Assembly: GCA_029210625.1 (NCBI GenBank)
Contig: JARGFU010000033.1
Span: 1 to 44,416 of the forward strand
DNA length: 44,416 nucleotides
Reading direction: 5' to 3'
From: Deltaproteobacteria bacterium
GTDB taxonomy: Bacteria > Myxococcota > Myxococcia > SLRQ01
Each line of letters opens with the position of its first letter. Within the stretch, counting starts at the first letter, position 1. The notes under the pieces were generated by a model that worked only from the letters and a program-made list of their open reading frames with translations, had not been told where the DNA came from and searched no databases. Shown here piece by piece: positions 10,522 to 36,468 of this stretch. The position numbers and the translations under genes were made by a program.

Positions 10522-11627
10522 TCGCTCGCCCCGAGCTCCAGGAGCAGGCCCACGGCGCGCAGCTGGGAGTCGTGGCCTTTCACGCTGGCCTGGAAGTCGC
10601 CGTGGCCCTGGCCGGCGGTCATCAGGAAGTGCTTCTGCCTCGAGCCGAGGTGGCGGAAGTCGTCCCGGTAGGTCGCGCGGGGGGGTGAGAGGGGGTCGTG
10701 CTCGAAGGTCACCTGCACCACCGGCAGGGTGATGAGGCCGAGGGCCTCGGTCCAGCGATGAGCGCCGCTGCGGGTCGAGCCGAAGGCCAGGCCGTCGGAG
10801 AGCTGGGCCAGGTTCTTCCCGGTGGTCGCCTCGACGGTGCGCGAGAGCATCGCCTCGCGCAGCTCGAGCGGCGTGTTCTCCCGGCGAAGGAGCGCGTCGA
10901 AGAGGGCGGCGGGCAGGTGGCGGTGGGCCCAGAGCCCGAGACGGCGGCCGGGGAAGCGATCCACCACGAGCGGGGGCAGCCCGCCGAGGAGGCCGCCGGT
11001 GCCGGCGAGGAAGCGCAACTGGAGGTTCTCGCCGGTCAGGGCCACCGAGCCGGCGAAGAAGCCCGCGGCGCTCACCCTGGCCTGCCGCGCCCGGGCCACC
11101 TCGGGATCGAAGCAGGCCCCTTCCGCGCAGCGGGAGAGCCCGGCCAGGCTGGCCTTGAGGGTCATGGCGCCCTGGGAGTGGCCGAGGACCAGGATCTTCC
11201 GGCCGCGGTGAGCGGAGAGCCAGTCGATGGCCCGGGGCAGATCGTCGATGGCGATGTCGTCGAGGCTGGAGCGGGGCGGGTAGTCGGAGGCGCCGATGCC
11301 CCGGACGTGGAAGACCCAGGGCTCGATCCCGTGGCGGGCGAGGAAGCGGGCGAAGGAGACGCCGCGCTCGGGCCAGAGATCGAAGACCCGGCCGTTCTGG
11401 AACATCCCCGGCACCAGCAGCGCCACGGCCCGCGGGCGGGCGAGGGCGGGGCCGACGCGGGCGATCTCCAGGCAGTAGTCCGGGCGGGCGGCGCCCCGGC
11501 GCTCCGGCCGGGTGTCGGGACCGCAGAGGCGGTGCCGCTCCCAGTCACCGGCGGCGGGCGGCGCCTCGGGCAGGTGGGCGCAGCCGACGGCGAGGAGGGA
11601 GAGCGAGAGGAGGAGGAGGGCGCGCAT
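10506..11627 (-). CDS. Alpha/beta-hydrolase lipoprotein (lipase/esterase-like)
   Basis: 373 residues. The signal peptide ends with lipobox LAVGC (Cys16), so it should be anchored in the envelope. The hydrolase core shows GHSQG (149-153, nucleophile Ser151), an oxyanion-type HVRG-IGASDY segment (107-116), FEHDPLSPP (probable acid) and GQGHGDF near the C-terminus (probable catalytic His). The fold resembles lipases and esterases; the substrate is unknown. It is the last gene of the first exbB-exbD-tonB operon, and its ATG shares one base with the tonB stop (TGATG), so its translation is coupled to TonB. That coupling suggests it liberates or trims a compound taken up through the Ton system, which is inference. 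Confidence 0.85.
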   Translation of the reverse strand: MRALLLLSLSLLAVGCAHLPEAPPAAGDWERHRLCGPDTRPERRGAARPDYCLEIARVGPALARPRAVALLVPGMFQNGRVFDLWPERGVSFARFLARHGIEPWVFHVRGIGASDYPPRSSLDDIAIDDLPRAIDWLSAHRGRKILVLGHSQGAMTLKASLAGLSRCAEGACFDPEVARARQARVSAAGFFAGSVALTGENLQLRFLAGTGGLLGGLPPLVVDRFPGRRLGLWAHRHLPAALFDALLRRENTPLELREAMLSRTVEATTGKNLAQLSDGLAFGSTRSGAHRWTEALGLITLPVVQVTFEHDPLSPPRATYRDDFRHLGSRQKHFLMTAGQGHGDFQASVKGHDSQLRAVGLLLELGASDQAVW

Positions 11628-12418
11628 CAGTCGAGGAGGAAGGTGTAGGCGTAGTCGATCTCGGTGGAGACGGGATCGCCGTCCACCGTGGCCGGGTGGA
11701 AGCGCACCTGCCGCAGGGCGCGCACGGCCGCCGCGTCGAGCTCGGGATCCACGCTCTCGATCACCTTCACCTTCACCACCGCGCCGAGGTGGTTGATGGT
11801 CAGGTGCAGCTTCACCGTGCCCTCGATCCCCGCCTGCCGGGGGGCCTCGGGGTAGGGCACCCGCACCTCGCGGGCCACCCGGGGCAGGGTGGTGACCTTG
11901 TGGGGCGCGATGTACTTCTCGGCGCCGACGTAGGGCTGCACCGCCTCCGGCGCCACCTCGACCTTCTTGTCGGGGGTGCCGTAGAGGGTGTTGCCCACCG
12001 CCACCCGCATCCCGCTGCCCTTGCCGGCCCCCACGGTCGAGGAGAGGGAGATGCCGGTGACGAGCGGCACCGGCTTCTTCGGCGGCGCCTCCGGCGGCGG
12101 CTGGTTGCTCGGCGGAGGGGGCGGCGGCGTGTCGGGCTTGACCACCTCGGGGGGCGGCTTGGGCCGGGGCTTGGGCTTCGGCTTCGGCGGCTCCGGCTTC
12201 GGGGGCTCGGGCTCCGGGGGGGGCGGGGGCTCGGGCTTCGGCGGCTCCGGCTTCGGGGGCGCCTCCACCACCTCGAGCTCCACCACCCTCCGCTTGTTCA
12301 GATCGAGGCCCTTCGCCGGCCCGGTGGTGAAGAGGAGGAAGGCCACGCAGAGGGCGTGCAGGAGGATGGACCCGAGGAGCCCGAGGACGATCCGCAGGCT
12401 CAGGCCCTCGTTCCTCAC
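11627..12418 (-). CDS. tonB: TonB energy transducer 1
   Basis: 263 residues in the classic TonB layout: short cytoplasmic start, one membrane span (about residues 8-30), a periplasm-spanning Pro/Lys/Glu linker (about 50-120, repeated KPEPP units), and a C-terminal TonB domain (about 185-263) with VPYPEAPRQAGIEG, VDPELDAAAV and FHPA. It carries inner-membrane proton-motive energy from ExbBD to outer-membrane receptors. It overlaps the upstream exbD by 4 bases and shares one base with the downstream hydrolase gene. No receptor is encoded in this operon, so it must energise one encoded elsewhere. Confidence 0.95.
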   Translation of the reverse strand: MRNEGLSLRIVLGLLGSILLHALCVAFLLFTTGPAKGLDLNKRRVVELEVVEAPPKPEPPKPEPPPPPEPEPPKPEPPKPKPKPRPKPPPEVVKPDTPPPPPPSNQPPPEAPPKKPVPLVTGISLSSTVGAGKGSGMRVAVGNTLYGTPDKKVEVAPEAVQPYVGAEKYIAPHKVTTLPRVAREVRVPYPEAPRQAGIEGTVKLHLTINHLGAVVKVKVIESVDPELDAAAVRALRQVRFHPATVDGDPVSTEIDYAYTFLLD

Positions 12419-12894
12419 GGCGTCGCCGGCTCCGGCGCCGGGGCGTCGTTCGCGGGCGCGTCGGCGGTCTCGTTCTTCTCGATGTTGATCGCGAAGCGGC
12501 TCACGCCGAGGCCCTTCACCAGGTCGATGATGCGGACCACTCGCCCGTGGGAGACGGCCTTGTCGGCCGAGAGGATGGCCTGCAGCTTCTCGCCGGCGGC
12601 CTTGGCCTGGGCGAGCAGCTCGGGCACTGCGTTTCGCAGGTCGGCCTCGCTGCTGGGCTCACCGTTGAGGTAGATGGCGCCCTCGGAGTCGATCACCAGG
12701 GCCAGGGTGGTCTCGACCGTCTCGCCGGCGTTGGCCGCCTCGGGCAGGTCGATCTCGATGGTCTCGCGCACGATGTAGGTCGCGGTGACCATGAAGATGA
12801 TCAGCAGCACGAGGGTGATGTCGACCAGGGGCGTGACGTTGATCCCGCTGATGATCTCGTCTTCGTCGCCGCTGCCGAGGGTGCCGCCCGCCAC
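12415..12894 (-). CDS. exbD: ExbD/TolR-type biopolymer transport protein 1
   Basis: 159 residues with a single N-terminal membrane span (about 23-43) preceded by the conserved GINVTPLVD motif. Asp25 in the span is the proton-linked residue of the ExbD/TolR family. A periplasmic domain follows, with the typical ILSADKAVSHGRVVRIIDLVK segment cut into strand-helix units, and the tail is Ala/Pro-rich. It forms the proton channel complex with ExbB and drives TonB. It lies 12 bases after exbB 1 and overlaps tonB 1 by 4 bases. ExbD versus TolR cannot be told from sequence alone, but the adjacent tonB favours ExbD. Confidence 0.94.
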   Translation of the reverse strand: MAGGTLGSGDEDEIISGINVTPLVDITLVLLIIFMVTATYIVRETIEIDLPEAANAGETVETTLALVIDSEGAIYLNGEPSSEADLRNAVPELLAQAKAAGEKLQAILSADKAVSHGRVVRIIDLVKGLGVSRFAINIEKNETADAPANDAPAPEPATP

Positions 12895-12906
12895 GTCTCG
12901 CTCTCC

Positions 12907-13527
12907 CTAGTGCTTCTCGGCCTTGAGGCCGGCCAGGAGGGCCTGCCCGGCGGAGGTCGCGTCGGAGGTGATCCGCTTCTGCCACCGGGCGAAGACGTTG
13001 AAGGCCGCCACCGCGGGGAGGGCCACGAAGAGGCCGACGGCGGTGGCCACCAGGGCCTCGGAGATGCCCGCCATGACCACGTCGGGTCCGCCGCCCGCGC
13101 CGGCGGCGGCCAGATCGGCGAAGGCCCGGATGATGCCCAGCACCGTGCCGAAGAGGCCGATGAAGGGGGCGTTGTTCCCGAGGGTGCCCAGGAAGGAGAG
13201 GAAGCGCTCGTAGCCCTGCCGGCTCGTGGCGATCTCTCCCAGCAGGGTCGCCTCCACCGAGGCCGCGCCCTTCGGGGCCGCCGCGATGCCGGCCCGCAGG
13301 ACGTCGCCCACCATGCCGGGGACCTCACCGAGGCGCTTTCGGGCGCCCTCGAGGTCGGCCTCCCGCAGGTCCTTCATCAGCCCCGCGCTGGGCCGGTGGC
13401 CCCGCTTCGCGAAGTAGAGGGTGCGCTCGATCATCAACGCCACCGAGAGGATCGAGAGGATGACCAGCAGCCACAAGACCCACTCGGCGCCGATGAGGGT
13501 GAAATCGAGGAGAGCCCGGGTGAGCAT
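12907..13527 (-). CDS. exbB: ExbB/TolQ-type proton channel protein 1
   Basis: 206 residues of the MotA/TolQ/ExbB family. Three membrane spans: about 12-32, 110-135 and 152-178. The second and third contain the conserved LGTLGNNAPFIGLFGTVLGII and AGISEALVATAVGL cores (each under 22 residues), which line the proton path. I chose ATG 13527 because the upstream extension is not protein-like. A TTGACA-N18-TACCAA promoter (13534-13563) would start the transcript at or very near this ATG, leaving little or no leader. It heads the exbB-exbD-tonB-hydrolase operon and is paralogous to exbB 2 (31124-31819). Confidence 0.94.
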   Translation of the reverse strand: MLTRALLDFTLIGAEWVLWLLVILSILSVALMIERTLYFAKRGHRPSAGLMKDLREADLEGARKRLGEVPGMVGDVLRAGIAAAPKGAASVEATLLGEIATSRQGYERFLSFLGTLGNNAPFIGLFGTVLGIIRAFADLAAAGAGGGPDVVMAGISEALVATAVGLFVALPAVAAFNVFARWQKRITSDATSAGQALLAGLKAEKH

Positions 13528-24172: not shown

Positions 24173-26434
24173 CTACTCGAAGATCAGGATCTCCTCGGTG
24201 CCCACGATGGGCACGAAGAGGCGCTCGCCGGTGGGATCGAAGGTCGCGCCACCGATCGGGCCGGTGACGTCCATGTAGGAGAGCTCGATCATCTCGGGGG
24301 TCCCGGGGTCGACGGTGACCATCCGCAGGAGGAAGTCGCTGGGCGTCTCCCGGCGGTTCCAGAGGTAGTGGCGGCGGTCGGGGGTGACGACGATGGGGCC
24401 GACCTGATCGACCTCGGAGGTCGTCTGGTAGAGCGGGGTGAGATCGTGGCCGAGGCCGACGATGGCCTCGTCCTCGCCCTCACCGGGCCAGAAGCGGTAG
24501 TGGAGCACCGGGCCGTGCTCGAGCATCACCGCGCCGAAGAACTCGGCGAAGCCCTCGGGCTCGGTGAGGCGCGTGTGGGGGGGCTCCCCCTCCTGCAGGC
24601 CCTGCGCGGTCCAGAGGCCACCGCGGGCGTGGCGCTCGCCGCTGCCGCTGGCCGACCAGAGGACCATCACGTCCCCGTCGGGGAGGGTCGCCAGCAGCTC
24701 GAAGCGCTCCTCGGCGCCGAGGGCGAGGCCCGCCTTCCGGGCGCCCCCCTGCAGGGCCATCACCCCGGTGAGGTGCGGCAGGAAGATCCGGTCCTCGTCG
24801 CCGAACTCGATGCCGAGGGGGCGGTGGGGGAGGTTGGGGAGGCGGATGACCTCCTCGTCCGACTCGAGGTCGAGGTAGCCCAGCTCCCGCTCGTGCACGA
24901 CCCAGAGGGTGCCGTCCGGGGCGGTGCCCACGCAGAGCAGGGGGCTGGTGCCAGGCGCCATCGGGCGCGGCTTGGCCGGCTGGAGGGTGCCGACCCCCAC
25001 CCGCACCAGGGCGTGGGCCCGGCGGGCGATCAGGAAGACCTCCTCCTCGTCCGGGACGAGCGCCGCTCCGCAGGCCGCGTCGCGGGTGCTGCCCAGGCCG
25101 ACGTCGAAGGAGATCCGCCGCTGCCAGCGCCCGGTGGCGAGCGCGAGGACGTCCACGTAGTTCGAGTCGGTGTCCGAGGCGTAGACCAGCCCCGCCGCCT
25201 CGTCGATCACCAGCCGCTCGGGCTGCGAGGCCAGCCCGGTGGCCCAGAGGCGCTGCCCGGCGGTGTCGTAGAGGGAGACCGAGCCGTCGAGGGGGTGGGT
25301 GACGGCGATGCGGACCCCCAGGGTGGGATCCTCGCTCGTCGCCGCGAGATCGCCGATGAGCGAGGTCGAGCCGGTGTCGATGAGGGCGCCGGTGAGGGCG
25401 ATCCCTCCGGTGAGCCCGAGGAGGGCCAGCCGGCCGTCGGTGCGGGCGATCGCCGCGAACTCGTCGGTGCCCTGCTGGTAGGTCGTCACCGGCCCGGGGA
25501 GCTCGACGTCCTGCTCGACCGGCACCCAGGTGGCCAGGTCGTTGCCCCGGGGGTCGATCACCGAGAGGCCGTGCTCGGAGCCGGTGGCCAGCAGGCTGTC
25601 GCCCACGACCACCAGGCGCCCGCTGCGGGTGGTCGCCGCGGCGCCGTGGATCGAGGACATGGCCAGCCGCCGGGGTGGGCCCGCCGGCGCGAGCCCGGGA
25701 TCGAAGGCCAGGGCGTGGGCGCGGCCCGCGGGGTCGATGCCGGTGACGTAGACGTAGCGCTGCCCGCCGGCGTCCACCGGGACGATCCGGGTGGGCATGG
25801 CGCCCTGCAGGTCCGCGGGATCGAGGCTGCTCACGAGGGCACCGTCGGTGGTGTCGAAGCCCTGCACGCCGTCGTCGCTGTAGGCGGCGTAGACCCGCGC
25901 GCCGTCGCTGGAGGCGGCGAAGTCGATGGGCTTGGACTCGAGGAAGAAGCGGAGGTCCGAGCCGTCGACGAAGCCCTGCCGGAAAAGGGTGGAGGGGTAG
26001 ATCAGCCGGCCGCCGGCGAGGGCGAGCGCGCGGGGCCGGTGGAGGATCCGCACCGTGGCGACCCGGGTGCCCGACGCGGGGCGGCCCCGCCCCAGGTATT
26101 CGAAGGGCTCGGCGGTGGCGGCGCTGCGGGGGCCGGCGTGGATGACCAGGGGGCCGCGCCCGGCGTCGTCGGGGACGACCACCTCCAGGGCGCCGCCCTC
26201 CGGGGAGAGGTGGGCCGGCACCCGCTGACCGCTGGCGAAGACGACCTCGTTCTCGGCGGCGAAGCCCGCGCCCCGGATCCGTACCCGGGTCCCGGCGAAG
26301 CCGGTGGTGGGGGAGAAGCCCTCGAGGACCACCGTCTCGTCGGGAGGTGGCAGCAGGAAGTCCCTGCCGCAGCCAGCGATCAACCCGTGCGCTGCCAGCA
26401 GCAGCGCCGCGCCCCTCCAGCCCTCGATTCGCAT
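24173..26434 (-). CDS. Lipoprotein with IPT/TIG domain and beta-propeller-like repeats
   Basis: 753 residues. The signal peptide ends in a lipobox (LIAGC, Cys22). An IPT/TIG immunoglobulin-like domain follows directly (about 38-115: GFSPTTGFAGTRVRIRGAGF). The rest is made of repeated strand blocks such as VDEAAGLVYASDTDSNYVDV, which read as beta-propeller blades of the YncE/NHL kind. It is probably surface-exposed and binds a ligand or another envelope protein. It is the last gene of Ton operon 2, 47 bases after the preceding lipoprotein gene, so it may help the TonB-dependent receptor capture its substrate; that is inference. I chose ATG 26434 over the longer frame to 26548 because the lipobox then sits correctly. 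Confidence 0.82.
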   Translation of the reverse strand: MRIEGWRGAALLLAAHGLIAGCGRDFLLPPPDETVVLEGFSPTTGFAGTRVRIRGAGFAAENEVVFASGQRVPAHLSPEGGALEVVVPDDAGRGPLVIHAGPRSAATAEPFEYLGRGRPASGTRVATVRILHRPRALALAGGRLIYPSTLFRQGFVDGSDLRFFLESKPIDFAASSDGARVYAAYSDDGVQGFDTTDGALVSSLDPADLQGAMPTRIVPVDAGGQRYVYVTGIDPAGRAHALAFDPGLAPAGPPRRLAMSSIHGAAATTRSGRLVVVGDSLLATGSEHGLSVIDPRGNDLATWVPVEQDVELPGPVTTYQQGTDEFAAIARTDGRLALLGLTGGIALTGALIDTGSTSLIGDLAATSEDPTLGVRIAVTHPLDGSVSLYDTAGQRLWATGLASQPERLVIDEAAGLVYASDTDSNYVDVLALATGRWQRRISFDVGLGSTRDAACGAALVPDEEEVFLIARRAHALVRVGVGTLQPAKPRPMAPGTSPLLCVGTAPDGTLWVVHERELGYLDLESDEEVIRLPNLPHRPLGIEFGDEDRIFLPHLTGVMALQGGARKAGLALGAEERFELLATLPDGDVMVLWSASGSGERHARGGLWTAQGLQEGEPPHTRLTEPEGFAEFFGAVMLEHGPVLHYRFWPGEGEDEAIVGLGHDLTPLYQTTSEVDQVGPIVVTPDRRHYLWNRRETPSDFLLRMVTVDPGTPEMIELSYMDVTGPIGGATFDPTGERLFVPIVGTEEILIFE

Positions 26435-26481
26435 CCGGGGATTATGGGCCAGCCGCCCGGCGCCCGCACGGCCTCCCGGGA

Positions 26482-27330
26482 TCAGGGCCGCAGGTAGAGT
26501 GGGCCGAAGGCGGCCTGGCCGCCGCGGCCGTCGCGGACGACCAGCCACAGCTCGCTCTCGGTGGTGTCCGGCTCGTAGGTGATCGCGACCTCGTCGCCGA
26601 AGGCGAAGGCGTACTCGAAGCTTCCGCCGGTGGCGTGGAAGGCGACGATCGGCTCCTCGAGGCGGGTCGCGTCGGCCTCGCCGGCGACCGGGATCGTATC
26701 CAGGCTCTCGGGGTCGATCCGCACCCCGAGGGTGAGGGGGCCGGCGCCCACGGCGAGGGAGTCCCCTCGGGCGACGGGCGTGCCGTCGAGGGTGACCGCG
26801 GCGATCACCGGCGCCCGGTTGAGGGGGCGGGCCGGCGCCTCGAGGTGGAGGGGGAGGCGCAGCACGGCCTCCCGCGGCTCGGCGCCCGGGGTGAGGAGCC
26901 GGTAGCGCAGGTGGGTCTCCAGGGTGGAGGGGAGGCCGGCGCCGGGCACCGCGCCGGTGGCCTGGACGTCGAGGCCGAGGGCGCCCGCGCAGGCGAAGGC
27001 CTCGGCCGCCGGATCGAAGGTGACGGCGCCGTCGGCGCCGACCGTCACCGGCCGCTCGCAGACCGGGTCGATGCAGGCGAAGGCGCTGGCCGAGCCCAGG
27101 GAGAAGGGGCAGAAGGCCGCCTCGGTGGTGGCGTCCGTGCTCCCCGCCGGCAGGTAGACGGCGGGGGTGACGGTGACGGTCTCCCCGACCACCGGCTCGA
27201 GGGGAGAGGCCGAGAGGGCCAGGATCCGCGGGCGGTCGAGGAGGGTGGGGGAGGAGAGCTCGTCGGCGCAGCCGAGGGCGCCGAGGCCGAGGAGGAGCGA
27301 GAGGGAAACGAAGGAACCGGTGGAGCGCAT
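26482..27330 (-). CDS. Lipoprotein of unknown function, partner of the TonB-dependent receptor
   Basis: 282 residues. The signal peptide ends in a lipobox (LGALGC, Cys21). The mature part looks beta-rich and Ig-like, with VTPAVYLPAG, a Cys-containing segment at about 70-120 (Cys residues in AFCPFS, FACIDPVC and FACAG, probably disulfides) and a second strand-rich half. I do not recognise the family. ATG 27330 shares its first base with the stop of the receptor gene (TGATG), so translation is coupled. The position after a TonB-dependent receptor matches that of substrate-binding surface lipoproteins in other uptake operons, but homology to SusD or a known binder is not evident. Confidence 0.8.
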   Translation of the reverse strand: MRSTGSFVSLSLLLGLGALGCADELSSPTLLDRPRILALSASPLEPVVGETVTVTPAVYLPAGSTDATTEAAFCPFSLGSASAFACIDPVCERPVTVGADGAVTFDPAAEAFACAGALGLDVQATGAVPGAGLPSTLETHLRYRLLTPGAEPREAVLRLPLHLEAPARPLNRAPVIAAVTLDGTPVARGDSLAVGAGPLTLGVRIDPESLDTIPVAGEADATRLEEPIVAFHATGGSFEYAFAFGDEVAITYEPDTTESELWLVVRDGRGGQAAFGPLYLRP

Positions 27331-29903
27331 CACCACTCTCCCTTCACCCCGAAGACGGGGAGGATGGGCAGCCCGGTCAGGGCCTCGGACTGCGCGTAGT
27401 CGTAGCTGTAGCGGGTGCCCTCGACGTTGCCGTGGGCGTAGGCGTTCTGCACGTCGAGGTAGGCGGAGAACTTCCAGCGCGGGAAGACCCAGGTCCGATC
27501 CACCCGCAGGTCGAGCTGATGGAAGGCCGGCAGCCGCTCGGAGTTCACGTCGCCGTAGACCGGCACGTAGACGCCGGCGGCGGCGTCGAAGATCGAGGAG
27601 ACGACCGGGGTGGTCGGGTTGCCCGAGACCAGGCGGAAGCGGGCGCCGACGGTGAAGCCGTGCGGCAGCTCCCAGGAGGCCACGGCCGTGAGGATGTGGG
27701 GCTGGTCGAAGTCGAAGCGGCGCTCGGCCGCACCGGGGCGGTCGGTGCGCAGGGAGCGCTGGTAGGTGTAGGCGAGCCAGCCGACGAAGCGGTCGCCCAG
27801 CCGGGCCCGGGCCAGGAGCTCGGCGCCGAAGATCCGGCCCGTCCCCTGGGAGAGGTAGGGCGGCTCGTCGGCGGTGAAGCCGAAGGAGAGGTTGCGGCTC
27901 ACCAGACGATCGAGCTTCTTGTAGAAGCCGGTCACGTCCACCTCGAGGCTGGCGTCGGGGCCCAGGGGGAGGCGGTGGGCGATCCCCGCCGAGGCCTGGA
28001 AGGAGCGCTCGGGGAGCAGCTCGGGGTTGCCCACGTTCGGCGCGGACTCGTCGTAGAAGGGCTGCTGCTGGTAGAGGCCGGCGCCGGCGCGCAGGCTGGT
28101 GCGCTCGCCGAGGTCGACGATCGCCGAGAGCCGCGGATCCAGCGCCCAGCCCTCGATGGGTCCGTAGTAGTCGAGGCGCAGGCCCGGGGTGAGGGTCAGG
28201 CCGTCGATCGGACGCAGGCGCGCCTCGAGGAAGGTCGCCGGCTCGTAGACGATCGAGGTGCTCTCGAAGGTGATCAGATCCTGGGTCGCCGTCGGGACGC
28301 TCCCCTCGCCCTCCTTGGGGGGGCGGGGCGAGGAGAGGGCCAGCTTCACCCGGCCCCAGCGGCCGTCGAGGCCGCCGGCCAGCTCGAAGCGCTCGCTGGG
28401 CCGGAAGGTGAAGGTGCTGCGCCAGGAGAGGTCGCGCAGCCCCAGGTCGAAGGCGAAGTCCTGCCCCAGGGAGAAGCCGACCTCCTGGAGGCCGACCCGC
28501 ACCGAGGTCTCCTCGCTCCAGCTGGAGGAGAGGCGGGAGCGGCTGGTGAGCATGAGCTGGTGGAACATCGAGCGGGTCGAGAGGGCGCCGCGCACGGTGG
28601 GGTCGCTGGTGGGCTCCTCGAAGAGGAGCTGGAGGCGATCCATCGAGCCGAAGAAGAGCAGGCGCAGCTGGTGGCCCTTGGCCGGGCGGTAGCTGGCGAT
28701 GAGCTGGTAGTCGTAGAAGCGCGGGGCGGTGTCGAAGGCCACCGGCGCGGAGTCGGGGAGGGCCAGCGGCAGGAGGGTGTCGATGTAGGAGCGGGCGAAG
28801 CCGCCGCCGATCGAGAGGGTGTCGGTGACCGGACCCTCGAGGGCGAAGGAGGCGTCGTAGGCGTTGAGGTCCACCCGGCCGCGGAAGAGGTCGGTGGCGG
28901 GGTCCCGCACCTTCACGTCGATGATGCCGCCGGTCGCCCGCCCGTACTCGGCGGAGTAGTTGCCCGGGACGAAGTCGACGGTCTCCAGGAACTTCGAGCC
29001 GAAGGTGCTGCGCAGGCCGCCGAAGTGGTAGACGCTCGGGATCTCGAGCCCCTCGAGGAAGACCCGCGAGTCGCCGGGGCTGGCGCCGCGCAGGATGATG
29101 TCGCCGCCGCTGAAGGAGGGGCGGGCGACGCCCGGGAGGTTCTCGATCACCTTGATGGTGTCGCCGCTGGTGCCCGGGAGCTTCTCGACCTCGGCCTTGG
29201 AGAGCACCCGGCGGGTGACCTCGCGGCGCACGCGCTGGGCGCGCACCACGGTGCTGTAGGCGCCGGTGGTGCGCTGCAGGTAGATGGTCTCGTCCCGCGA
29301 CTCACCCGCCTCGGCCGTGATGCTCACCTCGAGCTTCTGGTGCTCGGGGGGCAGGGCGACGAGGGTGAACTCGGTGGCGTCGACGGTGAGGAGGGCGACG
29401 CCCGCGGCGTCGGTGAGGCCCTCGGCCAGCTGCTCCCCCTCCTTCACGGCGAGGACGCGCAGGCGGGCGAGGGGCACGCGGGTGCCTCGCTCGAGGAGGG
29501 TCAGCTGGTAGCGCACCGGCTCGGGCTCGGGGGCCGGCGGCGGAGGCGGGGCCGCGATCGTCATCCGGAAGGCGATCTTCACCGGCACGGTGCGCCCGTC
29601 GGTGAGCCGGGCAGGCTCGAAGACGAAGCGGCCGGCGGCGCTGCGCGCCGCGCCATCGAAGGGCTCTCCGGCGCCCTCCTTCACGGCGACGCCCTGCACG
29701 GCGCCGGTCTCGTCCACGTCGATCGTGAGGACGACGGTCACCGAGTCGGCGCCCTCGGGGAAGGCGGTGCCCTCGGGCAGCTCGGGCTCGACGAGCTCCT
29801 GGAGCTGCGGTCCGGCGGCCAGGGTGGGGGCCGCGGCCTCCTGGGCCAGGGCCGGAGCGGTGGACGCGACGAGGAGCAGAAGGGGAGCGAGGCGAGGGAG
29901 CAT
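27330..29903 (-). CDS. TonB-dependent outer-membrane receptor with N-terminal TonB-C-like domain
   Basis: 857 residues. A signal peptide ends near ALAQ (21). Residues about 45-120 match the C-terminal domain of TonB itself (VDETGAVQGVAV, FDGAARSAA, FVFEPARLTDG), which is unusual at this end of a receptor. A Pro-rich spacer and a carboxypeptidase-regulatory-like Ig module (about 130-210) follow. Next come the plug domain (about 225-340, with PGTSGDTIKVIENLPG and ILRGASPGDSRVFLEG) and a 22-strand-type barrel to the C-terminus. It should import a scarce ligand using TonB energy; the ligand is unknown. It lies 2 bases after tonB 2 and is coupled to the lipoprotein gene downstream. Confidence 0.9.
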   Translation of the reverse strand: MLPRLAPLLLLVASTAPALAQEAAAPTLAAGPQLQELVEPELPEGTAFPEGADSVTVVLTIDVDETGAVQGVAVKEGAGEPFDGAARSAAGRFVFEPARLTDGRTVPVKIAFRMTIAAPPPPPAPEPEPVRYQLTLLERGTRVPLARLRVLAVKEGEQLAEGLTDAAGVALLTVDATEFTLVALPPEHQKLEVSITAEAGESRDETIYLQRTTGAYSTVVRAQRVRREVTRRVLSKAEVEKLPGTSGDTIKVIENLPGVARPSFSGGDIILRGASPGDSRVFLEGLEIPSVYHFGGLRSTFGSKFLETVDFVPGNYSAEYGRATGGIIDVKVRDPATDLFRGRVDLNAYDASFALEGPVTDTLSIGGGFARSYIDTLLPLALPDSAPVAFDTAPRFYDYQLIASYRPAKGHQLRLLFFGSMDRLQLLFEEPTSDPTVRGALSTRSMFHQLMLTSRSRLSSSWSEETSVRVGLQEVGFSLGQDFAFDLGLRDLSWRSTFTFRPSERFELAGGLDGRWGRVKLALSSPRPPKEGEGSVPTATQDLITFESTSIVYEPATFLEARLRPIDGLTLTPGLRLDYYGPIEGWALDPRLSAIVDLGERTSLRAGAGLYQQQPFYDESAPNVGNPELLPERSFQASAGIAHRLPLGPDASLEVDVTGFYKKLDRLVSRNLSFGFTADEPPYLSQGTGRIFGAELLARARLGDRFVGWLAYTYQRSLRTDRPGAAERRFDFDQPHILTAVASWELPHGFTVGARFRLVSGNPTTPVVSSIFDAAAGVYVPVYGDVNSERLPAFHQLDLRVDRTWVFPRWKFSAYLDVQNAYAHGNVEGTRYSYDYAQSEALTGLPILPVFGVKGEW

Positions 29904-29905
29904 GA

Positions 29906-30697
29906 TCAGCCCTCCAGGACGAAGCCGATGGTGTAGGGGATGGGGACGGCCGCGGCGACCGCGCCCATCCGCCCGGGGGAGCAGCGGATGCGGCGGGCAG
30001 CCTCGATGGCGGCCGAGTCGAAGAGGGTGCCGGCGCTGCGGGTCACCTCGGCCGAGGCGACCCGGCCGGTCTCGTCGATGACCAGGCGCAGCTCGACCTC
30101 GCCCTCGCGCCCTTCCCGGCGCGCCTCGACCGGGTAGCGCACGTCGGGCTGGGGGCAGCGCGGCATCCGGGTGATCTCGAGGACCTCCGCGGCGGCGAGC
30201 TGAGGCGCGGGGCCCGGCGCCGCCTTGCCGCGGAAGCCGTTGGCGGCCTGGTCGCGGGTGGCGTCGGGGTCGGCGAAGGCGCTCCCGCCGCCGGCCTCGG
30301 CGCGCACCGAGATGCCGCCGCCGGAGGAGACCGTGGCCGCCATGTCGAGGGCGAAGACCGGCAGGGGGGCGGGGGCGGTCGGCGGGGCCGGTGTCTCGGC
30401 CGGAGCGGGGGGCTCCGGAGCCGCGGGCGCCTCCGCCACGGGGGCGGGGCGGGTGAGCTCCTTCACCTTCTTCACCTTCATCCGCCGCACGGCCTTCGCC
30501 GGCGGGGGCCTCGGCGCCGGGGGAGGGGTGAGCTCGGGGGCCGGAGCCGGGGGCGCCGGGGCGGGCTCGACGATCGTGAGGTCCACCACCGAGCGCGGCG
30601 CCCGGGCCGCGGGCGCCTGGTAGCTCGTCCAGACGAAGGCCGCGAGGCCGAGGTGGGCGGCCAGCGAGGCCGCGAAGCCGGGGAGGGAGAGGCGCAT
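29906..30697 (-). CDS. tonB: TonB energy transducer 2
   Basis: 263 residues: membrane span at about residues 4-25, Pro/Ala/Glu linker with a basic KVKKVKEL patch (about 35-125), a Gly-rich segment, and a C-terminal TonB domain (about 180-263). That domain is atypical: MPRCPQPDVRYP carries a Cys just before the YP motif, and the usual FxPA near the end is RIRCSPG, giving two cysteines that could form a periplasmic disulfide. The start is ATG 30697, 4 bases after exbD 2; an in-frame start at 30739 would overlap exbD. It lies between exbD 2 and the TonB-dependent receptor and is presumably dedicated to that receptor. Confidence 0.92.
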   Translation of the reverse strand: MRLSLPGFAASLAAHLGLAAFVWTSYQAPAARAPRSVVDLTIVEPAPAPPAPAPELTPPPAPRPPPAKAVRRMKVKKVKELTRPAPVAEAPAAPEPPAPAETPAPPTAPAPLPVFALDMAATVSSGGGISVRAEAGGGSAFADPDATRDQAANGFRGKAAPGPAPQLAAAEVLEITRMPRCPQPDVRYPVEARREGREGEVELRLVIDETGRVASAEVTRSAGTLFDSAAIEAARRIRCSPGRMGAVAAAVPIPYTIGFVLEG

Positions 30698-30701
30698 GGT
30701 C

Positions 30702-31124
30702 CTAGCTCTCGGAGTCGATGGGTTCGGTGGAGAGGGCAAAGCGGGTCACACCGGCGGCCTTCACGGCGTCGACGAAGCCGACGACCCGCCCGTGGGTGGT
30801 GCTGCGGTCGGCGGCGATCACCACCTGCAGCTCGGGGGTCTTCGCGACCTCGGCGCGCACCTTCTGGAGGACGAGCGCCTCGTCGCTGGCCTCGCCGTTC
30901 AGGTAGACCGCGCCATCGGCGGAGAGGACCACCGAGACCGTCGAGGGCGTGGTCTCGGTGGCGGTGGCGGCCTTCGGCAGGTCGACCTCGATGGAGGGGC
31001 CGACGATGGAGGAGGCGGTCACCATGAAGATGATGAGGAGGACGAGCACGACGTCGACCAGGGGAGTGACGTTGATCCCGGTGATGATCTCGTCGTCGTC
31101 GGTCAGGGAGACGTGGCTGGCCAT
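30702..31124 (-). CDS. exbD: ExbD/TolR-type biopolymer transport protein 2
   Basis: 140 residues with a single membrane span (about 22-42) after GINVTPLVD, with Asp24 as the proton-linked residue. The periplasmic domain has VVIAADRSTTHGRVVGFVD. It is paralogous to ExbD 1 (12415-12894) but lacks that protein's Ala/Pro tail. ATG 31124 shares its A with the exbB stop (TGATG), which marks translational coupling; a GTG one codon earlier is the alternative start. It works with ExbB 2 and TonB 2, encoded on either side, to energise the receptor further down the operon. Confidence 0.94.
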   Translation of the reverse strand: MASHVSLTDDDEIITGINVTPLVDVVLVLLIIFMVTASSIVGPSIEVDLPKAATATETTPSTVSVVLSADGAVYLNGEASDEALVLQKVRAEVAKTPELQVVIAADRSTTHGRVVGFVDAVKAAGVTRFALSTEPIDSES

Positions 31125-31819
31125 CACGCGGCCTCCTTCCGGGTCGAGACGGTGGCGACCTGCGCGGCCTCACCCGGGCCGGCGTAGTCCATCAGGGTGC
31201 GGGCGATCAGCTCGGCGCCGCGGAGGGCCTCCTGCACCTTCCCCTTGAAGATGTTGAACATCATCACCGCGGGCAGCGCGACGAGCAGGCCGATCGCCGT
31301 GGCGACCAGCGCCTCCGAGATGCCCGCCATCACCGCCTGGTTGCCGGACTCCGTGTTCGCGGCCAGGTCGGCGAAGGCCTTGATGATGCCGAGCACCGTG
31401 CCGAAGAGGCCGATGAAGGGCGCGTTGTTTCCCAGGGTGCCCAGGAAGGAGAGGCCTCGCTCGTAGCGCACCTTCTCCCGGGCGACCGCCAGCCGCAGCT
31501 TCTGCTCGGCGTGGTCCGCGCCCCGGGGCAGGGCGCCGATCATCTCCAGGGCGACGGCGACCTCGAGGCTCTGGCCCCGGTCGGCCTTCCGGGCGGCGGC
31601 CCGGGCGAGCTCGGGCCGGCGCTGGTCCAGGCCCTCGGCCAGGTCGAAGGCCAGGCGGCCCGCGTCGATGCGGCGGCGGCGGTAGAAGAACCAGCGCTCG
31701 ACCATCACCGAGATGGAGAGCACGGAGAGGGCGATGAGCAGCCACATGACCCACTCCGCCCCGAAGACGGTGATGGCCTGGGCCAGGGATTCGGTGATCT
31801 GGATGGATTCGGTCTGCAT
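31124..31819 (-). CDS. exbB: ExbB/TolQ-type proton channel protein 2, first gene of Ton operon 2
   Basis: 231 residues of the MotA/TolQ/ExbB family. Three spans: about 20-40, 128-150 and 168-195. The LGTLGNNAPFIGLFGTVLGI core is almost identical to ExbB 1. It has a longer N-terminal and cytoplasmic loop than ExbB 1. ATG 31819 is chosen because a strong ribosome site, GAGGAGGAAAT, lies directly upstream; the longer frame to 31882 would run through the promoter. It heads a six-gene operon (exbB, exbD, tonB, receptor, two lipoproteins) and is divergent from a CarH-like regulator 184 bases away, whose promoter shares an element with its own. Confidence 0.94.
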   Translation of the reverse strand: MQTESIQITESLAQAITVFGAEWVMWLLIALSVLSISVMVERWFFYRRRRIDAGRLAFDLAEGLDQRRPELARAAARKADRGQSLEVAVALEMIGALPRGADHAEQKLRLAVAREKVRYERGLSFLGTLGNNAPFIGLFGTVLGIIKAFADLAANTESGNQAVMAGISEALVATAIGLLVALPAVMMFNIFKGKVQEALRGAELIARTLMDYAGPGEAAQVATVSTRKEAA

Positions 31820-31843
31820 GATTTCCTCCTCGAGGTTGGGAGG

Positions 31844-31872
31844 AGTTTGGTGGTTTTGGTCGAATATGTCAA
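31844..31872 (-). promoter_or_regulatory. Promoter and putative operator of Ton operon 2
   Basis: On the minus strand: TTGACA (31872-31867), 17-base spacer, CAAACT (31849-31844). The -10 is the end of the 16-base element CCAAAACCACCAAACT (31859-31844). The same element, at the same distance from the -35, lies before the second CarH-like gene (14/16 identical), and a third version lies before the first CarH-like gene. The expected start (about 31837) leaves an 18-base leader with a ribosome site. Upstream, GTTGA is repeated at a 10-base interval. Confidence 0.6.
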
Positions 31873-31967
31873 CATCAATCAACCAAAAAAATCACATCGA
31901 ACTCCCCCTTGACCCCCCCTGGCGGTCCAAACCTCTGGAATCAGACCGAAAAAGGGGACCACGGGCC

Positions 31968-31997
31968 TTGACGGAAAACCTCCATTTCCACCAGATT
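31968..31997 (+). promoter_or_regulatory. Promoter and putative operator of the first CarH-like gene
   Basis: TTGACG (31968-31973), 18-base spacer, CAGATT (31992-31997). The 16-mer CCATTTCCACCAGATT (31982-31997) is the third copy of the shared element (12/16 with the 33678-33693 copy). The predicted start coincides with the ATG at 32004, so the message would be leaderless; no ribosome site is visible. Confidence 0.48.
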
Positions 31998-32003
31998 CGC
32001 CCC

Positions 32004-32813
32004 ATGAGCACCAACCTCCTCACCAGCCGCGAGGTCGCCGAGTTCCTCGGGGTGGGGGTCTCCTCCGTGAACCGCTGGGCCGACGCCGGCAAGCTGGAGC
32101 ACGTGAAGACCCCCGGCGGTCACCGCCGCTTCGCCCGCCTGGCAGTGGAGGCCTTTCGCCGCGAGCGCGCCGGCCTGCCGACGGATGACGGGGAGTCCTT
32201 CTGCGCCGGCTGGACCGAGCGCCTCCTGGGCGACGCGCCGCCCGAGGCCCTGGTCGGTCAGCTGCTGCGGGAGCGGGCCGAGCGGGAGAGCTGGCTCGCG
32301 GTGGCCGGCGCCCTCGGGCCGGTGCTCGCGCGCATCGGCAGCCTATGGGAGGAGGGCACGATCTCGGTCACCGAGGAGCACCTGGCCTCCGAGCGCCTGG
32401 CGCGGGCGCTCTCTCGCTGCGCCGAGCTGCTCCCGGTCGCGGTCGCCGCCCCCGAGGCGCTGCTGGCGGCGCCCGAGAGCGAGGAGCACACCCTGGGCCT
32501 CTCCCTCCTCGAGCCCGCCCTGCGGGAGTGGGGCTGGCACTGCCGCTTCGCCGGCCGGCGCACGCCGCTGGAGGATCTCGCCGGCCGGGTGCGGGGCGGG
32601 AGCTTCGAGCTGGTGGCGCTCTCGGCCTCGGTCTCCACCCCGGCGGCGGTCCTGGGGGAGGTCGCCCGGGTCATCGGGGAGGCCGCGGCGGAGGCGGGCG
32701 CGGCCCTGCTCATCGGCGGCCTCGGCCCCTGGCCGGAGCAGCTGCGCCACGGGCGCCGCGTGCAGCGCTTCGCCGAGCTCGAGCGGGCGCCCGAAGGTCT
32801 GCGGCGCAACTAG
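32004..32813 (+). CDS. CarH/LitR-like MerR-type repressor with adenosylcobalamin-binding domain (1)
   Basis: 269 residues. A MerR-type winged helix (about 5-45: TSREVAEFLGVGVSSVNRW, then GGHRRF) binds DNA. A helical cap domain follows with the CarH hallmark W-x9-EH (Trp115, Glu125, His126), and then a B12-binding Rossmann domain with E-x-H-xx-G (Glu160, His162, Gly165; His162 is the candidate cobalt ligand) and a GG motif in LLIGGLG. CarH proteins are AdoCbl-dependent tetrameric repressors inactivated by light; the intact signatures suggest the same mode here. It is divergent from Ton operon 2 and tail-to-tail with a second copy, 6 bases between stops. ATG 32004 has a promoter ending 6 bases upstream and so may be leaderless. 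Confidence 0.93.
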   Translation: MSTNLLTSREVAEFLGVGVSSVNRWADAGKLEHVKTPGGHRRFARLAVEAFRRERAGLPTDDGESFCAGWTERLLGDAPPEALVGQLLRERAERESWLAVAGALGPVLARIGSLWEEGTISVTEEHLASERLARALSRCAELLPVAVAAPEALLAAPESEEHTLGLSLLEPALREWGWHCRFAGRRTPLEDLAGRVRGGSFELVALSASVSTPAAVLGEVARVIGEAAAEAGAALLIGGLGPWPEQLRHGRRVQRFAELERAPEGLRRN

Positions 32814-32819
32814 CCTCTG

Positions 32820-33668
32820 CTAGAGCACCCGGCGAAGCAGGGGGCGGGCGCCCGAGCGGGCGAGCAGGGCGCTGTAGGAGGTGTAGGAGCGCAGGCGGGA
32901 GCCAGCGGGCATCGGCTCGGGCCAGGCCCCCGAGCCTCCGACGATCAGCGCGGCGCCCCGTTGGTCGCAGGCTTGCGCCAGGTGGGCGACGATCTTCCGG
33001 AGCAGGTCGGGATCCTGGCTGAAGGCCGAGGCGGAGATGGTCACGCAGGCCAGGTCCTCGGTCCGGAGGATGGTCTCGGCCAGCGCCTCGGGAGGGGTTC
33101 GGGCGCCGATCCAGTGGGTGCGCAGCCCCGCCTCCCGGGCGCAGACCTCCGCCAGGGCGAGGCCGAGGGTGTGCTCCTCGCTCTCCGGCGTCGCCAGGAG
33201 GACCACCGGAGCCTCGGGGCTGACCGGCAGCGCCTCGACGATCGCGGCGAGGGCCCGGGAGAGCCTCGCCGAGGCCAGGTGCTCGGCCACCACCGAGAGC
33301 TCACCCCGCGCCCAGCGCTCGCCCAGCTCGACGATCCCCGGCGCCACCGAGTCGGCGACCTCGCCCCAGCTGCCCAGGCGGCTGCGAGCCCGGAGGAGGT
33401 CGGCCCGGAGGCTCGCGACGTCGGAGGCCGCGAGGAAGCGATCGGCCCAGCTGGTGGAGGGCAGGGCGCTGACGCCTCCCTGCTGGTGATCGAGGAGCGC
33501 CTGCACGGCCGTCGGGTGGAAGCGGCGGTGCCCTCCGGCGGTGCGCTGGCAGTGAATCCGGCCCTCGTCTGCCCAGCGGTTCAGGGTGGAGGTGCCCACC
33601 CCGAGGCGGCCGGCGGCCTCGCGACTGGAGAGCAGGATGGGGCCTCGTCTGGCGATTTTCCGAGTCAT
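32820..33668 (-). CDS. CarH/LitR-like MerR-type repressor with adenosylcobalamin-binding domain (2)
   Basis: 282 residues and the same architecture as the preceding regulator: MerR-type winged helix (about 12-52, SSREAAGRLGVGTSTLNRW and GGHRRF), helical cap with W-x9-EH (Trp119, Glu129, His130), and B12 domain with E-x-H-xx-G (Glu164, His166, Gly169) and VGGSG. The PESEEHTLGL segment is identical in the two proteins, but the rest has diverged well, so this is not a recent duplication. It is divergent from an SDR39U1 epimerase gene. Its promoter carries the 16-base element found before Ton operon 2, which suggests autoregulation or cross-regulation. AdoCbl and light response are inferred from the family. 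Confidence 0.93.
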   Translation of the reverse strand: MTRKIARRGPILLSSREAAGRLGVGTSTLNRWADEGRIHCQRTAGGHRRFHPTAVQALLDHQQGGVSALPSTSWADRFLAASDVASLRADLLRARSRLGSWGEVADSVAPGIVELGERWARGELSVVAEHLASARLSRALAAIVEALPVSPEAPVVLLATPESEEHTLGLALAEVCAREAGLRTHWIGARTPPEALAETILRTEDLACVTISASAFSQDPDLLRKIVAHLAQACDQRGAALIVGGSGAWPEPMPAGSRLRSYTSYSALLARSGARPLLRRVL

Positions 33669-33677
33669 GATGCAAGC

Positions 33678-33706
33678 AGTATGGTGGTTATGGATGTTTT
33701 TGGCAA
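33678..33706 (-). promoter_or_regulatory. Promoter and putative operator of the second CarH-like gene
   Basis: On the minus strand: TTGCCA (33706-33701), 17-base spacer, CATACT (33683-33678). The element CCATAACCACCATACT (33693-33678) is 14/16 identical to the Ton operon 2 element and sits at the same offset from the -35. The predicted start lies about 3 bases before the ATG at 33668. The surrounding 33661-33745 is AT-rich compared with the rest of the window, and further CCA triplets lie upstream. Confidence 0.6.
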
Positions 33707-33871
33707 ATTTATCTGGTCAAAATCTACCATTTGGTCCATGATTGCCCTCACGCCCCTCCCCTCGGACCCCCGGAGCCCATCAATGGAGCGCCCAGGCCCC
33801 CCAGACCTCCCGCCCCCGCGGTTTGCTTCCGTGCAGGCCGGAGCTAGGTTCCAGAAGGCGGGAGAGAGGGA

Positions 33872-34792
33872 ATGAAGGTCTTCATCACCGGTGCGACCGG
33901 GTTCGTCGGGCGGCGGCTGGTGCGTACCCTCCAGGACCGGGGGGACGAGGTCGTGGCCTGGGTCCGCGATCCGCGCCGCGCGACGGAGGTTCTGGGAGAG
34001 CAGGTCGAGCGGGTCGCCACCGACGTCGGCGAGGCGGCCCTCGCCCGGCACCTCGCCGGGGCCGACGCCGTCGTGAACCTGGCCGGGGAGAACCTCTTCG
34101 GTGGGCGCTGGACCCGCGCCCGCAAGGCCGCGCTGGAGTCCTCGCGAATCGACCTGACGGGGACCCTGGCGCGCACCCTCGCGAACCTGCCCGGGGAGGA
34201 GCGCCCCGCGGTCTTCGTCTCGGCCAGCGCCGTGGGCTACTACGGCGACCGGGGGGCCGAGCGCCTCACCGAGGCGAGCGCCCCGGGCGACGACTTCCTC
34301 GCGGGCCTCTGCCAGCGCTGGGAGGCGGCGACGACCCCGGCGCGGGAGGCCGGCCTGCGCACGGTCATCCTGCGCATCGGGGTGGTCCTCGGTGAGGGCG
34401 GGGCCCTCGGCCGGCTCCTCCCGCTCTTCCGGCTGGGCGCCGGCGGCCGCCTCGGCAACGGTCAGCAGGCCTTCCCCTGGATCCACGTCGAGGACCTCGT
34501 TGGGATCCTCCTCGCGGCCCTCGACGATCCCTCCCTCGCAGGGGTCTACAACGCGACCGCGCCCGGGTCGGTGACCAACGCCGAGCTCACCCGCGCCCTG
34601 GCGAAGGCGGTGCGTCGGCCGGCCCTCGTCCCGGTCCCCGGCTTCGCCATGAAGGCGGCGCTGGGCGAGGCCGCGGTCGCGCTGCTCGGCGGCCAGGACG
34701 CCGTGCCCCAGCGCCTCCTCGAGGCCGGCTTCCCCTTCCACTATCCGGATCTCGACTCGGCCCTCGCGGCCGTCGTCGAGGGGGGCCGCTGA
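33872..34792 (+). CDS. SDR39U1/TIGR01777-family NAD(P)-dependent epimerase-like protein
   Basis: 306 residues. Atypical extended SDR with cofactor motif TGATGFVG (6-13), NLAGENLFGGRWT (the family hallmark), SASAVGYYGDRG (Tyr active-site region) and FPWIHVEDLV. The family (E. coli YfcH) has no settled reaction. The ribosome site is GGGAGAGAGGGA; TTGCTT-N16-TAGGTT at about 33823-33850 is a weak promoter candidate. It is divergent from the second CarH-like gene across 203 bases. TIGR01777 genes have been noted near MerR/B12 regulator and photolyase genes in other bacteria, to my recollection, so it may belong to the same regulon. It is followed after 4 bases by a lipoprotein gene. Confidence 0.93.
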   Translation: MKVFITGATGFVGRRLVRTLQDRGDEVVAWVRDPRRATEVLGEQVERVATDVGEAALARHLAGADAVVNLAGENLFGGRWTRARKAALESSRIDLTGTLARTLANLPGEERPAVFVSASAVGYYGDRGAERLTEASAPGDDFLAGLCQRWEAATTPAREAGLRTVILRIGVVLGEGGALGRLLPLFRLGAGGRLGNGQQAFPWIHVEDLVGILLAALDDPSLAGVYNATAPGSVTNAELTRALAKAVRRPALVPVPGFAMKAALGEAAVALLGGQDAVPQRLLEAGFPFHYPDLDSALAAVVEGGR

Positions 34793-34796
34793 CGCC

Positions 34797-35624
34797 ATGC
34801 CCCTCGCCCGCTCCCTCCTCACGGCGCAGAGCACCTTGCTGCTCCTCGGCGCCGGGGCCTGCGGGGGGACCGAGCCGCCCCGCACCTATCAGCACGCCGA
34901 CGCCGGGGTGGGCCTGCCCCTGCCCGAGGAGGCGGGAACCCGGGTCTTCGCGCTCGAGCAGGTCTCCTCCGAGATCGTCACCAACCCCAGCCCCTTCTCC
35001 AACGACACCGCCGTCTCCTCCCTCACCGCCTGGTTGCGGGTGCGCTGGTCGCGAGAGGGAGAGGAGATCGTCTGGGACGAGGCGCTCTGCGCGATGCGCA
35101 GCAACGAGATCTTCGGCACCACCACCCGCTACCCGCAGGCCTTCCTGGAGTCGATCCCCCGGCGCCAGCGCAGCGGCCGGCTGGCGGCCGCCCAGGTCGG
35201 CGCGACCTTCGAGGCGGGCCCCTTCGTGGATCTCTTCGGCGTCAGGCTCACGGACCCCGCCTCCGAGGCGCTGCCGACCGGCCCCGACGATCCGCGGGTG
35301 GAGGACAGCGACGGCGACGGCGAGCCCGGCATCACCGTGGCGGTCGAGCAGAGCCTCCTCGGCAGCGGAGAGGTCTTCGTCGCCCAGCGCTCCACCAGCA
35401 GCTACGAGGGCGTGGTCGTCTCGCCCGACCGGCTCGAGGGTGAGGTCCGGGTGATCACCGAGAAGACCGTGCTCGGGGCCACGGCCGGCTGGCTGGAGTC
35501 CGGCACCGAGGCCGCGCCCGATCCCGATCCCACCCACAACTACTTCATCTTCCAGGCCGTGCCCGACCACACGACCTGCACCCAGATCGTGCTCAACCGC
35601 GATCGCATCTTCGACGAAGGCTAG
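34797..35624 (+). CDS. Lipoprotein of unknown function with a calcium-loop-like motif
   Basis: 275 residues. A hydrophobic start ends with GAGACGG (Cys21 or 22), a reasonable lipobox, so it should be an envelope lipoprotein. The body is beta-rich and acidic. VEDSDGDGEPGITV, near residue 170, has the DxDxDG spacing of a calcium-binding loop, in the manner of thrombospondin type-3 or EF-like loops. I recognise no family. It starts 4 bases after the SDR39U1 gene and 7 bases before the barrel gene, so the three are very likely one transcript. Confidence 0.8.
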   Translation: MPLARSLLTAQSTLLLLGAGACGGTEPPRTYQHADAGVGLPLPEEAGTRVFALEQVSSEIVTNPSPFSNDTAVSSLTAWLRVRWSREGEEIVWDEALCAMRSNEIFGTTTRYPQAFLESIPRRQRSGRLAAAQVGATFEAGPFVDLFGVRLTDPASEALPTGPDDPRVEDSDGDGEPGITVAVEQSLLGSGEVFVAQRSTSSYEGVVVSPDRLEGEVRVITEKTVLGATAGWLESGTEAAPDPDPTHNYFIFQAVPDHTTCTQIVLNRDRIFDEG

Positions 35625-35631
35625 ATCGATC

Positions 35632-36468
35632 ATGAACAGGAAAACGAAGCTCGCCCTCATCGCCAGCCTGCTCCCGGCGCTGGCCATCGCCGAGGCCAAG
35701 CCCGAGGCCGAAAGCATGACCGTCCGCGCGGTGGCCGAGCTGGGCTACCTCGGCGTGCTCTCCCACGTCATCCAGCTCGATCAGGACGGCACCCTCATCG
35801 ACTACAAGGCCGAGGGCGGGCAGGAGGTCCTCTTCCCGGTCAGCCGCTTCTCGATGGAGCTGGGGCTGAACGCGCGCCACCGACTGGTCTTCCTCTACCA
35901 GCCGCTGAAGATCGACACGGTGAACATCCTGCCCCGCGATCTGGTGATCTCGGAGGCGACCTACCCCGCCGGCACCCCGGTGCGCTTCGTCTATGGCTTC
36001 CCCTTCTGGCGGGCGAGCTGGCTCTACGACTTCGCCCCGGGCCCCGAGCGCGAGCTCTCCTTCGGCGTCTCGCTCCAGCTGCGGGACGCCACCATCACCT
36101 TCGAGACCCTCGACGGAACGATCCTGCGCAACAGCCGGGACGTGGGGCCGGTGCCCATCCTCAAGGCCCGCTGGCGGCAGCCCCTCTCCCGCTCCTTCTG
36201 GGTCGGCGCCGAGGCCGACGGCTTCTATGCGCCGATCAGCTACATCAACGGCAGCGACAACGAGGTGGTCGGGGCGATCCTCGACGCCAGCCTGCGGGCC
36301 GGCCTCGAGCTCGAGGGGGGGGCCACCCTCTTCCTCAACCTGCGCTACCTCGGCGGCGGCGCCGTGGGGCAGAGCGAGCCCGACGGGCCGGGGGACGGCT
36401 ACGTGAAGAACTGGCTGCACTTCCTCACGGTCACCCTCGGGGCGACCTACGACCTGCAGGTCCTCTAG
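35632..36468 (+). CDS. Predicted outer-membrane beta-barrel protein
   Basis: 278 residues. A cleavable signal peptide (MNRKTKLALIASLLPALAIAEA) opens the protein; the alternating-residue strands that follow (for example RFSMELGLNARHRLVFLYQPL and LELEGGATLFLNLRYLGG) fit an 8- to 12-strand outer-membrane barrel. No enzyme motif seen. It is third in the SDR39U1-lipoprotein-barrel operon (7-base gap). The C-terminus ends in Leu rather than the Phe common in BAM substrates. Its last 4 bases overlap the convergent gene. Function unknown. Confidence 0.8.
   Translation: MNRKTKLALIASLLPALAIAEAKPEAESMTVRAVAELGYLGVLSHVIQLDQDGTLIDYKAEGGQEVLFPVSRFSMELGLNARHRLVFLYQPLKIDTVNILPRDLVISEATYPAGTPVRFVYGFPFWRASWLYDFAPGPERELSFGVSLQLRDATITFETLDGTILRNSRDVGPVPILKARWRQPLSRSFWVGAEADGFYAPISYINGSDNEVVGAILDASLRAGLELEGGATLFLNLRYLGGGAVGQSEPDGPGDGYVKNWLHFLTVTLGATYDLQVL

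Follow-up and report, generated by a model that had tools for sequence, protein, structure and literature searches.

A Ton uptake operon of a Myxococcia-class genome appears to be co-controlled by a photoprotection regulon of the LitR/CarH type, a reading well supported by the predicted operator sites and the genes near which they lie. Protein-based control of this operon by a pair of CarH-type regulators was proposed in a preliminary description, and two results uphold the proposal: an operator matrix built from other genomes peaks in the gap before exbB, within the putative exbB promoter, and the motif found there recurs at light-protection genes in other parts of the genome. The gene content, the sensor residues, the operator-like sites and the genes that accompany them are all read directly from the DNA; the window referred to below is the whole stretch of 44,416 nucleotides that was analysed.

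Organization of the Ton operon and its neighbours

Six minus-strand genes, exbB to LP2, run from 31819 down to 24173 and are taken as a single operon because overlaps are short and gaps are of 47 bp or less. The operon and the genes beyond it are:

24173..26434, minus strand: LP2, lipoprotein (lipobox LIAGC; no match in Pfam)
26482..27336, minus strand: LP1, lipoprotein, conserved receptor partner (lipobox LGALGC)
27330..29903, minus strand: TonB-dependent receptor (Plug and beta-barrel domains; N-terminal TonB_C-like domain)
29906..30697, minus strand: tonB (PF03544, E 6e-15)
30702..31127, minus strand: exbD (PF02472, E 5e-28)
31124..31819, minus strand: exbB, proton channel type, first gene of the operon (PF01618, E 2e-31)
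32004..32813, plus strand: Reg1, regulator with HTH_17/BldC-like and B12-binding domains
32820..33668, minus strand: Reg2, paralogous regulator
33872..34792, plus strand: NDR, TIGR01777 family oxidoreductase, divergent from Reg2 (334 bits against a cut-off of 207)
34797..36468, plus strand: LP3 lipoprotein and an outer-membrane-protein-like gene (no match in Pfam)

Gene order and strands are as first described: the operon diverges from Reg1 across a gap (gap1, 31820-32003) of 184 bases, and Reg1 and Reg2 stand tail-to-tail. The reported lack of a cobalamin riboswitch in gap1 also stands, there being 0 Rfam matches at the gathering score in the window and 0 riboswitch matches at E<=5 in 31700-34000. 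LP1 lies 3' of the receptor in related genomes too, and the LP3 and outer-membrane-protein-like genes, which follow NDR at gaps of a few bases, are likely co-transcribed with it. The earlier statement that the window holds no photoprotection genes is probably wrong: NDR, the commonest divergent neighbour of the regulator family, faces Reg2, and since this commonest arrangement is retained, the window holds a likely photoprotection-regulon gene.

A second exbB-exbD-tonB-like set is found at 10506-13527 of the window, the Ton energiser genes beside Reg1 thus not being the sole set. A copy of the outer-membrane-protein-like gene (35632-36468), 80% identical to it, is present on contig 7 and lies ~1.6 kb away from an orphan gene for a B12-binding domain that lacks a recognisable HTH (L085:6768-7616 and 9170-9688), a pairing that suggests another link to a B12 sensor.

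The regulators Reg1 and Reg2

Reg1 and Reg2 appear from their sequences to be AdoCbl-binding regulators of the CarH fold, nearest to CtMerR and with a BldC-like DNA-binding domain. Each matches HTH_17, B12-binding_2 and B12-binding, the last below cut-off in Reg2. The initial designation as a MerR/B12 regulator holds for the B12 part and fails for the DNA-binding part, which is HTH_17/BldC-like and not classical MerR_1; in Reg1 HTH_17 scores 48 bits versus 17.4 bits, below cut-off, for MerR_1. The BldC model NF033787 gives the pair 55.3 and 46.4 bits, under its 77-bit cut-off, and the CarH equivalog model NF052513 gives 55.6 and 58.4 bits, under its curated 400-bit cut-off. The best PDB sequence match of Reg1 is CtMerR (8JBS, E 1e-22), followed by TtCarH, and an AlphaFold model (pLDDT 87) built with ten members of the family has its best fold matches in TtCarH and CtMerR.

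The CarH signatures Wx9EH and ExHxxG are indeed present in both proteins, the lower axial His motif (E/DxHxxG) reading EEHTLG in each, and core AdoCbl residues are conserved in 10/10 family members compared. A light-responsive CBD is defined by SignatureFinder through the four elements GxxW, EH, GxxH and GxxxP, three of which are kept in Reg1/Reg2 (GSLW/GERW, EH and GRRTP/GARTP); the GxxH element reads SEEH in both, with Ser replacing Gly and the His retained. At the position of TtCarH His132, the residue for the bis-His light state of class I CarH, Reg1 has Glu and Reg2 has Ala.

Among known systems, CtMerR of Chloracidobacterium thermophilum (PDB 8JBS/8JBT) resembles the pair in its AdoCbl sensor with GxxW, EH, GxxxP and the lower axial His, in a DNA-binding domain unlike that of CarH and bearing a GGHRRF wing, and in the absence of His132; it differs in that Reg1 and Reg2 have SxxH. 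Class I CarH/LitR proteins (T. thermophilus, M. xanthus) share the sensor fold, the core AdoCbl residues and a direct-repeat operator on the promoter, which in the window is predicted, whereas the pair has the BldC-like domain, no His132 and predicted targets that include a Ton operon; class I operators are 11-bp repeats (PMC9304148), unlike the 9-bp form of the matrix used here. BldC of Streptomyces is of the same HTH type and binds 9-bp head-to-tail direct repeats (PMC5859096), but it has no sensor domain and the pair falls short of its family cut-off. The regulon of the Pseudomonas class II LitR proteins (PplR/PmlR) shares the UfaM, FAD oxidoreductase, photolyase and RudS families; these proteins, however, are without a full B12 domain, PmlR2 uses a LOV partner, and no Ton operon is mentioned in the accessible portions of the reports (PMC9758184, PMC11417400). 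MliR is a MerR-like iron regulator for which the available excerpt gives no B12 domain. Contig 13 of the genome (L084) carries carotenoid genes as well as two CarH/CarA-like regulators, of which one has His132, and this crt-linked CarH system is separate from the Reg1/Reg2 pair.

Relatives of the regulators in other genomes

In Anaeromyxobacteraceae-type genomes relatives of the pair face a UfaM/UfaO/DUF1365/Cfa lipid operon in divergent orientation, and those in Planctomycetota, Acidobacteria, Myxococcota and other MAGs adjoin NDR, RudS, DCC1-like, photolyase or crt genes, with NDR (TIGR01777) beside them in ten other loci (L098-L103, L107, L116, L119, L122). UfaM, photolyase and RudS are target families of light-responsive LitR operons (PMC9758184, PMC11417400), in which RudS is frequent (PMC11417400).

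A conserved order of regulator, exbB, exbD, tonB and receptor, which was to be sought in related genomes, did not emerge: exbB divergent from such a regulator was not found among 145 genomes of the class, 195 of the phylum or in a pattern scan of 84,980 species, the exbB-Reg1 arrangement thus occurring in no other searched genome. Uniqueness of the order to one strain is an outcome that the preliminary description itself counted against its proposal. The nearest case is that of three Anaeromyxobacter-type MAGs in which a relative lies past the receptor operon at a distance of ~1.5 kb, separated from it by an MFS and a glutaredoxin gene, and in which no strong operator precedes exbB. Homologous Ton operons stand without such a regulator in most related genomes; the receptor family is widespread in the class, where LP1 generally accompanies it and the regulator is often absent. 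Because gene order is not conserved, the functional link between the Ton operon and the regulators rests on the operator evidence, and the arrangement is best read as recruitment of the operon into the regulon within one lineage.

Several other settings of the family were seen. Many genomes of family f4 (L046-L048, L050-L053, L019) encode a related HTH/B12-fold protein whose gene and a glutamyl-Q tRNA synthetase-like gene are divergently oriented and flank ATCGTCTAATCG-like repeats; the lower axial His motif is absent in the two members checked. At L037, L039 and L041 a family regulator with repeats in its own promoter stands in what looks like an operon with an MFS transporter gene, flanked on one side by a gene of the PAP2 family and on the other by the Ton receptor operon. 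A contig labelled as a Klebsiella pneumoniae MAG (L125), possibly mis-binned, carries a regulator relative (31%).

Predicted operator sites and promoter geometry

Promoters of Reg1/Reg2 relatives share tandem 9-bp repeats of consensus GACGATTTN, and a position weight matrix (PWM) of two 9-bp direct repeats was trained on 21 promoters, all from outside the window. The putative promoters and predicted operators of the window are:

31844..31872, minus strand: putative exbB promoter, TTGACA (31867-31872), 17-nt spacer, CAAACT (31844-31849), from sequence
31850..31867, unstranded: predicted operator, 9-bp direct repeats in the exbB promoter spacer (PWM 15.2 bits)
31968..31996, plus strand: putative Reg1 promoter, TTGACG-N17-CCAGAT (opposite-strand gap alignment, 21/31)
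33678..33706, minus strand: putative Reg2 promoter, TTGCCA-N17-CATACT (promoter scan, 9/12)
33684..33736, unstranded: predicted operator region in the Reg2-NDR gap (gap2), three PWM sites

The gap1 operator ranks first of 88,798 window positions, in a test that was not fully blind since the single outside locus that seeded the matrix was picked after viewing all gaps, and its score is reached by 2 of 500 dinucleotide shuffles of gap1. The gap2 sites at 33684-33701, 33693-33710 and 33719-33736 rank 4, 3 and 6, with 4 of 500 shuffles at least as high as the best observed score, and a weaker Reg1 operator at 31974-31991 (8.4 bits) ranks 9. When Anaeromyxobacteraceae sites are left out of the matrix gap1 is still first and the gap2 sites rank 3, 6 and 7; with a matrix from those sites alone gap1 drops to rank 10.

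Operator-like sites occupy the -35/-10 spacers of all three putative promoters, a common layout, and the exbB and Reg2 promoter stretches are identical at 22 of 31 positions without gaps, a value matched by none of 300 shuffles. The exbB -10 is weak (3/6) and below what the promoter scan calls. Since the predicted operators fill the spacers, repression by promoter blocking is favoured; likewise the gap1 operator, at a distance of 31-48 bp from the exbB start, would serve exbB and not Reg1 alone because it fills the exbB spacer.

Other candidate targets in the genome

The 6.1-Mb genome was scanned with IUPAC patterns, the main one derived from the matrix and confirmed to match gap1. Its three exact matches lie in gap1, in the region separating a DCC1-like gene from a RudS gene (DCC/RudS gap) and in a csp (cold-shock) promoter, the DCC/RudS match being an unplanned success because both genes adjoin Reg1/Reg2-type regulators in other phyla. 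One mismatch adds the promoter of a SOUL heme-protein gene, with the top matrix score seen in the genome (PWM 18.5), although matches of this grade are not all meaningful, several lying inside genes. The sequence TWTGGTGGTTW, derived from gap1, gap2 and the DCC site themselves, has only four occurrences in the genome: gap1, gap2 and two in the DCC/RudS gap. The csp and SOUL genes are predicted as candidate targets by pattern match.

At the SOUL heme-binding gene (L166:8579-8674) two strong operator matches surround a clear TTGACA/TATACT promoter. A FAD_binding_7 photolyase was looked for in the genome and none was found; the UfaM operon was rejected as a target in the source genome, its orthologue not having been found.

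Proposed control and alternative readings

Binding, repression and dependence on light and AdoCbl are matters that we infer. Reg1 and Reg2 would be AdoCbl-binding repressors of the LitR/CarH superfamily, with a CtMerR-like sensor and a BldC-like DNA-binding domain, which in the dark would assemble as AdoCbl-bound oligomers head-to-tail on 9-bp direct repeats in the -35/-10 spacers of the exbB, Reg1 and Reg2 promoters and so block RNA polymerase; a few promoters farther away in the genome (DCC/RudS, SOUL heme protein) would be repressed likewise. Light would break the Co-C bond, the repressors would leave the DNA, and the Ton uptake operon, drawn into the regulon in the source lineage, would be expressed together with photoprotection genes. 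We consider this full account, in which the AdoCbl repressor pair blocks all these promoters and light releases them, to be moderately probable.

That Reg1 and Reg2 control only themselves and NDR/photoprotection genes, the Ton operon being a chance neighbour with a regulator of its own, is rather unlikely. The receptor operon does usually occur without the regulator, and in one of three g8 genomes (L037) a TetR-like gene is divergent from exbB, with no strong exbB operator in those genomes; yet the strongest gap1 operator lies between a perfect TTGACA and a -10 on the exbB strand and is 137 bp away from Reg1, which has a weaker site of its own. A role of the pair as B12-binding regulators in light-independent stress or redox control, suggested by Glu/Ala at the His132 position and SxxH for GxxH, is quite improbable. 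TtCarH H132A remains mostly tetrameric in light (PMC10442372), but CtMerR, with Arg at this position, dissociates from a tetramer into monomers on illumination, and the Gly of the GxxH signature acts through its main-chain carbonyl (PMC11796333); relatives of the pair, moreover, adjoin photolyases. Since CtMerR without His132 photoresponds and TtCarH H132A mostly does not, a light response of Reg1 and Reg2 is likely, not assured.

The conserved AdoCbl-binding residues would also suit a feedback on B12 uptake in which the receptor imports corrinoids and light is incidental. This we regard as very improbable, and the corrinoid ligand suggested earlier is not supported: the cobalamin riboswitch of the genome lies on contig 1 before a BtuB-like receptor, which matches both the TIGR01779 and BtuB models below cut-off, and BtuF/C/D-like genes, whereas the window receptor matches neither of these B12-receptor models and the regulon mates of its operon are photoprotection genes. 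With B12-uptake genes behind the riboswitch elsewhere, a corrinoid receptor was dropped as the main reading, and corrinoid uptake by the window receptor is unlikely. A heme or porphyrin cargo, at which the SOUL gene might hint, is speculation.

Returning to light-released control, the more specific proposal is of light-gated uptake, in which paired CtMerR-like AdoCbl repressors on BldC-type 9-bp operators would turn the Ton operon on in light within a RudS/NDR/DCC/SOUL regulon, its cargo being useful or available only in light; this is put forward tentatively, with nearly even prospects. The literature searched yielded no earlier case of a Ton operon controlled by a B12 photoreceptor, and to our knowledge this would be the first Ton operon so placed. 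If true, a B12 photoreceptor would couple outer-membrane nutrient uptake directly to light, and the output of the family would be wider than pigments and repair. For the CtMerR-like branch the 9-bp repeats between -35 and -10 would provide a concrete operator code, together with a short list of promoters, and a natural set of this sort could be used as a switch for green light that differs from CarH.
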